Of a stretch of DNA of 64,000 bases, positions 61,690 to 64,000 are shown in pieces (position 1 is the first letter of the stretch; every line of letters begins with the position of its first letter). The stretch is from NCBI RefSeq assembly GCF_900107455.1, contig NZ_FNQB01000002.1, forward strand, positions 868,001 to 932,000, written 5' to 3'. The stretch comes from Asanoa ishikariensis. GTDB lineage: Bacteria > Actinomycetota > Actinomycetes > Mycobacteriales > Micromonosporaceae. The position numbers and the translations under genes are program-made. The notes under the pieces were generated by a model that had not been told where the DNA came from, searched no databases, and saw nothing but the letters and a program-made list of their open reading frames with translations.

Positions 61690-62433
61690 ATGCTGACCCG
61701 CGCGTGGGGAATCGCCCGATCGTTGATTATCTATCACGGCCAGCCTGGTCGGCACCGCCGGCTCGTCCGCTTCTACGGGCAGTTTCTCGGCCCCGGCGAC
61801 GTCGCCTTCGACATCGGCGCGCACGTCGGCAGTCGGGTCCGGGCCTGGCGGTCGCTTGGCGCGCGAGTGATCGCCGTCGAGCCCCAACCTGACCTGCTGC
61901 GCGTGCTGCGCACCTTCTTCGGCCGCGACGACCAGGTCGTGATCGCCCCGGTCGCCGTCGGCGCCACACCCGGCACCGCCCAGTTGGCCCTGTCCACCGC
62001 GACGCCCACGGTCTCGACCCTGTCCACCTCGTGGCGCGACACGGTCTCCGCGGACCGCAGCTTCGCCAAGGTCCGCTGGGATCGCTCGGTCGAGGTGCCG
62101 GTGACGACCCTGGACGAAATGATCAAGGAGTACGGCGAGCCGGCCTTCTGCAAGATCGACGTGGAGGGCTTCGAGGCCGAGGTGCTGGCCGGGCTGTCCA
62201 ACCCGGTGCGGGCGCTGAGCTTCGAATACCTGCCGATGGCGCACGACGCCGGGCTGGCGGTGCTCGGCCAGGTCGAGGCGCTGGGCGACTACGAGTACAA
62301 CTACTCGCCGGTCGAGACCATGCGCTGGGCCCGCGAGTCGTGGATGAGCGCGGCGGAGCTCGTCGCCCTGTTCGGCGAGATCCGTCCGACGGGCCGTTCC
62401 GGCGACGTGTACGCCCGCCTCCGCGCGTCGTGA
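61690..62433 (+). CDS. FkbM-family methyltransferase
   Basis: 247 residues. The SAM-binding Rossmann motifs are VAFDIGAHVGSRV (about 38-50) and VIAVEPQPDLLRVL, and the FkbM domain signature DVEGFEAEVLAGL comes later. These enzymes O-methylate sugars, polyketides or glycolipids; the acceptor here is unknown. TAGGGT (61678-61683) precedes ATG 61690 by six bases, so the message is probably leaderless. The stop overlaps the next gene (GTGA), making a two-gene operon. Confidence 0.88.
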   Translation: MLTRAWGIARSLIIYHGQPGRHRRLVRFYGQFLGPGDVAFDIGAHVGSRVRAWRSLGARVIAVEPQPDLLRVLRTFFGRDDQVVIAPVAVGATPGTAQLALSTATPTVSTLSTSWRDTVSADRSFAKVRWDRSVEVPVTTLDEMIKEYGEPAFCKIDVEGFEAEVLAGLSNPVRALSFEYLPMAHDAGLAVLGQVEALGDYEYNYSPVETMRWARESWMSAAELVALFGEIRPTGRSGDVYARLRAS

Positions 62434-62963
62434 ACCGCGCCGTCATCCTGCTCACCGGCATCCAGGCGGCGGGCAAGTCGACGGTGGCCCAGGCGCTCGC
62501 GGAGCGGCTGCCGCGCTCGGCGCACGTGCGCGGCGACGTGTTCCGCCGGATGGTCGTCAGCGGGCGGGCCGAGATGAGTCCGGTGCCGTCGGCAGAAGCG
62601 CTCGCGCAGCTCCGCCTGCGATACCGGCTGGCCGCCCAGGTCAGCGACGCCTACTTCGAGGCGGGGCTGACGGTGGTCACCCAGGACGTCATCCTCGGAG
62701 AGTCCCTGGGGGAGATGGTCGGCCTGATCAAGAGCCGTCCGCTGCTGGTGGTCGTGCTCGCGCCGCGGCCGGCCGCGATCGCCGAGCGAGAGGCCGGGCG
62801 GGGCAAGGTCGCCTACGGGACCTTCGCGATCGAGCAGCTCGAACGGGTGCTGCGTGACGAGACGCCGCGGATCGGGTTGTGGCTGGACACGTCGGAGCAG
62901 ACGGTCGCCGAGACGGTGGACGAGATCCTGGCCAGGGCGTGGACCGAAGCGATGGTGCCGTGA
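62430..62963 (+). CDS. Small P-loop kinase/ATPase (AAA_33, zeta or chloramphenicol phosphotransferase-like)
   Basis: 177 residues. Walker A is GIQAAGKST (residues 10-18). VRGDVFRRMVVSG and VVTQDVILGESLGEMV follow, typical of small P-loop kinases related to gluconokinase and chloramphenicol 3-O-phosphotransferase. It likely phosphorylates a small molecule; the target is unknown. GTG 62430 overlaps the FkbM stop. A zeta-toxin role is unlikely because no antitoxin gene accompanies it. Confidence 0.85.
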   Translation: MNRAVILLTGIQAAGKSTVAQALAERLPRSAHVRGDVFRRMVVSGRAEMSPVPSAEALAQLRLRYRLAAQVSDAYFEAGLTVVTQDVILGESLGEMVGLIKSRPLLVVVLAPRPAAIAEREAGRGKVAYGTFAIEQLERVLRDETPRIGLWLDTSEQTVAETVDEILARAWTEAMVP

Positions 62964-62995
62964 GGGTGCCCGCCGGCGCGCTCGGCAGGCAGCCC
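62964..62995. terminator. Imperfect hairpin between the kinase gene and the cysteine-peptide gene
   Basis: GGGTGCCCGCCG can pair with CGGCAGGCAGCCC with two bulges. It begins directly after the kinase stop and lies a few bases beyond the minus-strand stop of the small peptide, so it may end both transcripts. Confidence 0.45.
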
Positions 62996-63000
62996 GCTGT

Positions 63001-63042
63001 CTAGCAGCCGCAGTCGCAGCCACATCCGCAGCATCCGCGCAT
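63001..63042 (-). CDS. 13-residue cysteine-rich peptide downstream of MerR regulator
   Basis: ATG at 63042-63040 encodes MRGCCGCGCDCGC, ending in TAG at 63003-63001. Six of thirteen residues are cysteine, in a CCxCxCxCxC arrangement typical of metal-thiolate binding. Upstream is AAAGGAGGTGA, a perfect match to the 16S rRNA 3' end, nine bases before the ATG; this ribosome site also contains the stop of the MerR gene, so translation is coupled. Standard gene finders would miss it by length. No other frame explains so strong a Shine-Dalgarno. It probably chelates or carries the metal sensed by the MerR protein. I know no described family of this size. Confidence 0.7.
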   Translation of the reverse strand: MRGCCGCGCDCGC

Positions 63043-63048
63043 CCTCGC

Positions 63049-63456
63049 TCACCTCCTTTCGGCGTCGGTCCCGGGCGGGCACCAGGTCCCCGGCTCGGGC
63101 GGCGGGCAGTCCGGCGACGGCAGCGCGTCGATCATCCGCACCATCTCGGCGCGCAGCGCGGCCAGCCGGGCCAGCTCCGCGTCGAGCTCGGCCAGGCGCC
63201 GCGTGAGCAGCTCCTCGGCCGGCTCGCACGGGCACACCCCGGTGTCCCGCACCGCCAGCAGCTCGCCGATGTCGCGCAGCCGCAACCCGAGCCGCTGCCC
63301 ACCCTGGATGAACCGCACCCGGTCCGCCGCGCTCTCGTCGTACGCCCGGTAGCCGGACGCCGTCCGCGGCGGCGGCCGCAGCAGCCCGACCCGCTCGTAG
63401 TACCGGACGGTGTCCGCGGAAACGCCCGCCACCTGCGCCAACTCGGCAACCCGCAT
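63049..63456 (-). CDS. MerR-family metal-responsive regulator
   Basis: 135 residues from ATG 63456. The winged helix covers about 1-70 (AELAQVAGVSADTVRYYERV, YRAYDE). A long dimerisation helix follows. Cysteines lie where thiophilic-metal sensors use them: CPCEPAEELL at the helix start, and near the C-terminus PDCPPPEPGTWCPPG. This resembles MerR and ZntR-type sensors of soft or divalent ions rather than drug sensors; which metal is uncertain. It lies under a typical MerR promoter (63464-63495) and is probably autoregulated and leaderless. Its stop codon is inside the ribosome-binding site of the 13-residue cysteine peptide, and the two form one operon. Confidence 0.88.
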   Translation of the reverse strand: MRVAELAQVAGVSADTVRYYERVGLLRPPPRTASGYRAYDESAADRVRFIQGGQRLGLRLRDIGELLAVRDTGVCPCEPAEELLTRRLAELDAELARLAALRAEMVRMIDALPSPDCPPPEPGTWCPPGTDAERR

Positions 63457-63463
63457 GAGCACC

Positions 63464-63495
63464 ACGCTAAACCTTGGAGCACACTCCAAAGTCAA
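63464..63495 (-). promoter_or_regulatory. MerR-type promoter and operator
   Basis: On the minus strand, -35 TTGACT (63495-63490) and -10 TTAGCG or TAGCGT (63470-63464) are separated by 19-20 bp, the over-long spacing typical of MerR-activated promoters. Between them is TTGGAG-(4)-CTCCAA, extended to 8 of 9 matching positions on each side (63471-63492). The -10 ends seven bases before the merR ATG, implying a leaderless message. Confidence 0.85.
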
Positions 63496-63535: not shown

Positions 63536-64000
63536 ATGGACTCGCTGCCGCGCACCATGTGGACGCTGTTCGAGCCGATCCACTCGGTCACGTACTTCAC
63601 GCCGCAGGCCAAGGAGGCGTTCGAGGCGGCCAACCTGCGCGGCTTCTGGCGCGGCTACTTCGCCGGCCGGGCGGCGCCGCTGGGTGCGGTCGACGCGGCC
63701 CCGGTCATCGCGCTGTTCTGGGGCTTCGCACCGGGCATGGTGACCCGGGCACTGCCCGACGTCTGGTCCCGGGCGACGCCCGCGGAGTCGCTGGCGGCCC
63801 GCCTGGCCGGTGCCCGCGCCTCGCTGGCGGCGCTGCTCGACGGCGTCGGCCCGGTCGACGAGGCCGCCGACCTGCTCCGCGAGGCGGCGTCCGCAGTGCC
63901 GACCGTGGGCCGCGTGCTGGGCGCCGCGAACGCCGCGTTGCCGTGGCCGGAGGACCCGATCGGGAGGCTTTGGCAGGCGGCCACGATCCTGCGCGAGCAC
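63536..64000 (+). CDS. SCO6745-family protein (partial, C-terminus beyond right edge)
   Basis: The first 155 residues of a plus-strand gene that continues past the window. The sequence RTMWTLFEPIHSVTYFTPQA, then LRGFWRGYFAGRAAPLGAV, is highly characteristic of the actinobacterial SCO6745 family, helical proteins of unknown function. TACGGT (63523-63528) lies seven bases before ATG 63536, so the message is probably leaderless. It is divergent from the merR gene across 79 bp, and the MerR operator could influence it too, although its own -35 region is separate. Confidence 0.85.
   Translation, partial: MDSLPRTMWTLFEPIHSVTYFTPQAKEAFEAANLRGFWRGYFAGRAAPLGAVDAAPVIALFWGFAPGMVTRALPDVWSRATPAESLAARLAGARASLAALLDGVGPVDEAADLLREAASAVPTVGRVLGAANAALPWPEDPIGRLWQAATILREH

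Follow-up and report, generated by a model that had tools for sequence, protein, structure and literature searches.

A MerR-type regulator gene and a cysteine-rich micro-ORF in Asanoa ishikariensis: a probable metal-response operon with a micro-metallothionein as its output

The 64,000 nucleotides of Asanoa ishikariensis DNA analysed here (the window) include a gene for a MerR-type regulator that is followed, on the same minus strand, by an open reading frame of only 13 codons (Table 1). The regulator gene runs from the ATG at 63456 to the TGA at 63051-63049 and spans 135 codons. The micro-ORF, MRGCCGCGCDCGC, encodes six cysteines; it opens with ATG CGC GGA TGC TGC (ATG at 63042-63040) and closes with the TAG at 63003-63001. 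The last codons of merR and its stop codon together make up a Shine-Dalgarno sequence, AGGAGGTGA (63057-63049), whose GGAGG lies 9 nt from the ATG of the micro-ORF. That ATG is 6 nt past the merR stop, and in this genome both genes share the same frame.

Table 1. Features of the merR–micro-ORF locus and its flanks (positions within the window).
Feature	Position	Strand	Remarks
Convergent P-loop kinase-like gene	62430..62963	plus	outside the operon, marks its end
Terminator-like hairpin, core GCCG-AGCGCGC-CGGC	62964..62995	minus	between convergent genes; covariation
Micro-ORF MRGCCGCGCDCGC	63001..63042	minus	13 codons + TAG; proposed micro-metallothionein; kept in relatives
Shine-Dalgarno AGGAGGTGA	63049..63057	minus	overlaps merR stop codon; 5-8 nt core in nearly all relatives
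merR-type regulator	63049..63456	minus	135 aa; cysteines 75, 77, 117, 126
MerR-type operator/promoter TTGACTTTGGAGTGTGCTCCAAGGTTTA	63468..63495	minus	0 mismatches; conserved in relatives
Divergent SCO6745-family gene	63536..64000	plus	neighbour; partnership not conserved outside genus

The initial annotation had described a perfect Shine-Dalgarno sequence within the merR stop, ahead of the ATG of a 13-residue, six-cysteine peptide. The coordinates confirm this arrangement, which is far above chance expectation. The window contains 672 ORFs of 9-40 codons, of which none but MRGCCGCGCDCGC reaches both 35% cysteine and five cysteines, and windows resampled under a Markov-1 model contained no ORF of comparable cysteine content. 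Across 273 kb of related loci, with the stretch directly after merR excluded, none of 4018 short ORFs qualified.

The regulator possesses the MerR winged-helix domain and dimerisation helix (Pfam PF13411, PF09278 and PF00376, all above cut-off). The proposal that it is a metal-type MerR with CxC cysteines is borne out: Cys75, Cys77, Cys117 and Cys126 are all present. Cys117 and Cys126 are conserved in the C-terminal loop with a spacing of 9, as are the two loop cysteines of mercury MerR; between Cys77 and the loop there are about 5 more residues here than in classical MerR. Sensors for divalent soft ions, unlike those for Cu(I), typically have a cysteine where the dimerisation helix begins. 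Cys77 occupies this place, aligning with Cys79 of Bacillus MerR (4ua1), and Cys75 adds a CPC motif. The best profile matches are models of MerR, ZntR, CadR/PbrR and CueR, with which the regulator has its domain structure, operator geometry and loop cysteines in common, but from which it differs by the extra CPC motif. It falls under every curated NCBIfam cut-off, those of the mercury MerR, ZntR, CueR and CadR equivalogs included (best score 89.4 bits, against 150.85).

The promoter of merR has a -35 element, TTGACT, and a -10 element, TAGCGT (63469-63464), separated by a 20-bp spacer that holds a palindrome. A palindromic operator in a spacer of 19-20 bp is the mark of the MerR family, and the geometry is that of a MerR-activated promoter; even with three mismatches allowed, just 0.01 such operator sites are expected by chance in the window. 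The merR mRNA is predicted to be leaderless, or nearly so, with a transcription start that coincides with the merR ATG or adjoins it. Loci with a peptide carry the operator before merR, with the consensus TTGACCTTGGAGTCGACTCCAAGGTTTA; in L047, L065 and L079 a divergent version under the search threshold was seen by eye. Before MerR homologues without the CPC motif no operator was found, the exceptions being L141, with a weak match, and L161, with a variant. The A. ishikariensis genome contains a single site at up to two mismatches and thus no second target within that limit. Scans for sigma-70 promoters and for U-tract terminators gave no match, as expected for a 20-bp spacer and for a hairpin that has no U-tract.

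That hairpin, of 12 pairs, lies 3' of the micro-ORF. Five of the 12 pairs show compensatory changes across nine loci; folding of the single sequence after the peptide was weakly better than that of shuffled sequences, and the case for the hairpin therefore rests on covariation. An inverted-repeat search returned nothing at the settings used and a search of Rfam gave no match. The structure looks like a terminator without a U-tract that closes the operon. Its core, GCCGAGCGCGCCGGCG, is present in four copies in the A. ishikariensis genome and in 4-9 copies in congeners, compared with 0-1 for a reversed control, and is possibly a recurrent type of terminator.

If the peptide is real, then the ORF and its ribosome-binding site should be kept beside orthologous merR genes. 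This was the check proposed at the outset, and conservation does reach across many genera and into two or more classes of Actinomycetota. Two congeners carry an orthologue of the regulator (90 and 93% identical); at the equivalent place, behind a similar Shine-Dalgarno sequence, they encode MSGCCGCGCECGY and MSCGCGCGCDC. Within the family the regulator is patchily distributed (33 of 251 genomes), and a cysteine-rich micro-ORF directly follows merR in 29 of the 30 loci read (for example MLEPTTRCDCEPDCCGPGCC, MTKRDCCGGCCGGGCC and MNTDECCNCCNDDACQCAGEDCCHGCCEK); in the remaining one, L059, it is broken partway. Nearly every close MerR homologue is followed by such an ORF, 11-30 codons long, about 36% cysteine and with a strong Shine-Dalgarno sequence, as are most other homologues with a CPCEP signature in the order and phylum samples and among named genomes. 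The loci belong to Micromonosporaceae, Geodermatophilaceae, Nocardioidaceae, Thermomonosporaceae, Acidimicrobiia and a Rhodococcus plasmid, and the genera include Virgisporangium, Phytohabitans, Saccharothrix, Lentzea, Actinophytocola, Geodermatophilus, Nocardioides, Knoellia and Actinomadura. We infer the reach into another class from named Acidimicrobiia relatives that fall in the same part of the MerR tree. Counts are of loci rather than species, and four genomes appear under two labels each (L038/L122, L041/L123, L065/L128 and L078/L131).

The association is specific to this type of regulator. None of the 27 other MerR paralogues of the genus is followed by a cysteine-rich ORF, and on the MerR tree (built from few columns, with rough support) the distribution of the peptide requires 10 changes, where shuffled labels are expected to require 45. 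The suggestion that the peptide is too short for automatic annotation, and may represent a widespread, overlooked family, is likewise supported. Seven representative peptides had no match in Pfam or NCBIfam up to E = 1, so we do not file the peptide under any known metallothionein family; on the Rhodococcus plasmid pGA1, whose gene table is incomplete, MHDCCEDPMCPPELCGCGC stands behind merR where no CDS is listed. These sequences are probably a real and overlooked actinobacterial family of very small metal-binding peptides, each produced when needed under the control of its own sensor.

One conceivable way of making the peptide would be read-through of the merR TGA. In this genome read-through is imaginable, because the ATG 6 nt past the stop keeps the frame. 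In relatives the offset between merR and the micro-ORF is -4, -1, +2, +5, +7 and other values, such that all three frames occur; we therefore reject read-through as a general mechanism.

The composition of the peptides is that of metallothioneins: very high in cysteine, with CC or CxC motifs and few aromatic residues. In 57 distinct peptides cysteine accounts for 36% of residues, aspartate for 14% and glycine for 12%; all 57 contain CC or CxC, and 48 are devoid of phenylalanine, tryptophan and tyrosine. Metallothioneins also bind d10 metal ions in thiolate clusters and are expressed on induction by metal; the operator and the metal-type MerR gene 5' of the micro-ORF bear indirectly on the latter. 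Among the 11 species of one genus (g12), all ten cysteine columns are invariant, using only TGC and TGT codons, and other positions change, a pattern indicating that the peptide ORF is under purifying selection specific to its cysteines. From genus to genus the peptide sequences are very different, and what is demonstrated across genera is therefore a shared position and composition rather than common descent. At five loci (L088, L102, L111, L132 and, in Chloroflexota, L158) MerR continues in frame into a cysteine-rich tail. The four fusions in Actinomycetota, all of them examined on this point, retain an internal Shine-Dalgarno sequence and ATG, as if the free peptide were still needed.

Genes around the operon might reveal the metal concerned. 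They vary between genera and are conserved mostly within them, and most peptide loci are without metal-resistance neighbours. A conserved efflux or enzyme partner next door was accordingly rejected; beyond the within-genus conservation, there is a minority association with ars genes. ArsR-type matches account for 6 of 110 neighbours, where about 0.65 is expected (from 50 in the A. ishikariensis genome, assuming about 8500 genes), and ArsO-, ArsC- and ACR3-like genes are also found. The association amounts to about four independent lineages and is for that reason too thin to name arsenic as the ligand, which is likely a soft metal or metalloid. No family of modification enzymes recurs among the neighbours, and we do not favour the idea that the peptide is a RiPP precursor.

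Plasmid-borne relatives of the regulator in Streptomyces and Mycobacteroides have neither the fourth cysteine nor the peptide. Their operators point at a divergent gene for a P-type ATPase that contains a CSC motif; it is as though the operator had two possible outputs, pump or peptide. On plasmids pFRL4 and pGD22-1 (L234, L235) the operator faces such an ATPase gene beside a related MerR, and the ATPase has an unusual ACSCSFAMATP motif where CPC is expected.

We put at about 0.7 the probability that the two genes constitute a self-contained, autoregulated metal-response operon, the only output of which is a micro-metallothionein. A soft metal or metalloid ion would bind MerR via Cys77, Cys117, Cys126 and possibly Cys75. 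Metal-bound MerR would then untwist its own promoter, whose 20-bp spacer would be too long for RNA polymerase to use without help. Translation of the short-leader mRNA would yield MerR, and terminating ribosomes would re-initiate at the overlapping strong Shine-Dalgarno sequence to deliver the cysteine-rich peptide in excess. Acting as a gene-encoded micro-metallothionein, the peptide would chelate the metal, lower the concentration of free ion and thereby turn the operon off again. Given that the operator drives merR and the peptide as the only target seen in the genome, the evidence favours a buffer or effector over a metal donor. The capacity of each chain would be small, because six cysteines bind at most one or two ions.

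Strict adjacency and predicted coupled translation would also suit a peptide that is a trans-acting part of the sensor, handing metal to MerR or stripping it away, and so setting a threshold or off-switch rather than providing protection. The cysteine-rich tails fused to MerR at five loci point the same way. The length and cysteine pattern of the peptide nevertheless vary freely beside a conserved MerR, which suits bulk chelation better than a docking surface, and some loci have a second peptide in tandem; we hold a role within the sensor to be unlikely. It is similarly doubtful that the peptide is a dedicated ligand of MerR, a detachable metal-binding tail that some lineages still have attached and that loads the sensor with metal or unloads it. 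Were this so, sensor and metal carrier would come from a single mRNA at a constant ratio.

SoxR and NmlR are also members of the MerR family, and at two loci (L096 and L106) thioredoxin-like ORFs stand in the place of the peptide; the peptide could thus be a sink for thiol redox or electrophile chemistry, controlled by a MerR that senses electrophiles or redox stress. We judge this quite improbable, since the best profile matches are the metal sensors named above, the cysteine pattern of the regulator fits a metal site and ars genes lie nearby in several lineages.

It is more improbable still that the run of cysteine codons is itself regulatory, with ribosomes that stall at low Cys-tRNA altering mRNA stability or termination, despite the hairpin directly 3' of the run. 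Attenuators act on downstream genes; the micro-ORF is Shine-Dalgarno driven, is the last gene before the hairpin, has no same-strand gene 3' of it in the window, and tracks a metal-type MerR and its operator. A leader peptide or attenuator was rejected as the main reading on the ground that the ORF comes last. The mycobacterial polycysteine attenuators are leaderless sORFs that are positioned 5' of the genes they regulate and work by attenuation (Canestrari 2020, cited in PMC9031893). The micro-ORF resembles them in being short, actinobacterial and rich in cysteine codons, but it has a Shine-Dalgarno sequence, lies 3' of merR and is followed by a hairpin and a convergent gene, and it does not fit their pattern.

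Thirteen codons are few, and TGC/GGC repeats arise easily at high G+C, but the absence of such ORFs elsewhere, the cysteine-specific purifying selection and the recurrence at dozens of loci in many genera refute a functionless chance ORF, to which we assign a negligible probability.

The micro-metallothionein operon proposed here has parallels among known systems. In Synechococcus the metallothionein gene also lies beside that of its sensor; there the sensor SmtB is a repressor of the ArsR type and the metallothionein SmtA is about 56 aa long, as opposed to a MerR-type activator and a 13-aa peptide here. Mycobacterial MymT (about 50 aa, CsoR/RicR-controlled) and the copper metallothionein of Neurospora (about 25 aa) are cytosolic metal chelators, small and cysteine-rich with CxC and CC motifs like the peptides described here, the shortest of which (11-13 aa) are about half the length of the latter. 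Salmonella GolS-GolB likewise couples a MerR-family sensor to an adjacent small metal-binding protein, but GolB is folded and CopZ-like rather than a cysteine-rich peptide. The nearest published case that we found is in Pseudomonas aeruginosa, where CadR activates zrd, a small, previously unannotated, metallothionein-like cysteine-rich ORF with a proposed role in metal sequestration (PMC12301328). Both systems combine a metal-type MerR-family regulator with a small unannotated cysteine-rich ORF. Zrd, however, is a zinc-ribbon protein encoded at a different place in the genome, as part of a regulon with cadA among its members (PMC12301328), whereas the peptides here have 11-30 aa, are encoded directly behind merR and go with one operator in the genome. 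We found no description of the MerR–cysteine micro-peptide arrangement in the open-access literature. If translated and metal-binding, these peptides would rank among the smallest gene-encoded metallothioneins, forming a class invisible to gene finders, spread over Actinomycetota and also carried on a conjugative plasmid. The minimal unit of one sensor, one peptide and one operator is directly testable and could be useful as a compact cassette for metal response and chelation; its existence further suggests that micro-peptides lie concealed past the stop codons of other metal regulators.

Several loci depart from the common arrangement. A relic in congener G002 (L118) keeps the operator and flanks; merR, the peptide and most of the kinase gene have been deleted, merR and peptide being lost together. 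In L093, L094 and L095, which are among the loci placed with the Acidimicrobiia relatives, two different cysteine-rich micro-ORFs, one of the CPCCGCPCGDCGG type and one of the CDCxPxC type, stand in tandem behind merR. The thioredoxin-like ORFs of L096 and L106 (VFTAxCPVCEPAV...) follow the same MerR and operator. At three loci from another genus of the family (L229, L230 and L231) the same operator precedes a gene for a small predicted membrane protein, and this MerR is not directly behind it. Finally, in L101, L104, L110 and L135-L138 CxCGC-rich proteins of 38-98 aa replace the micro-peptide behind the same type of MerR; these loci form one clade on the MerR tree, and the proteins tested belong to no Pfam family.
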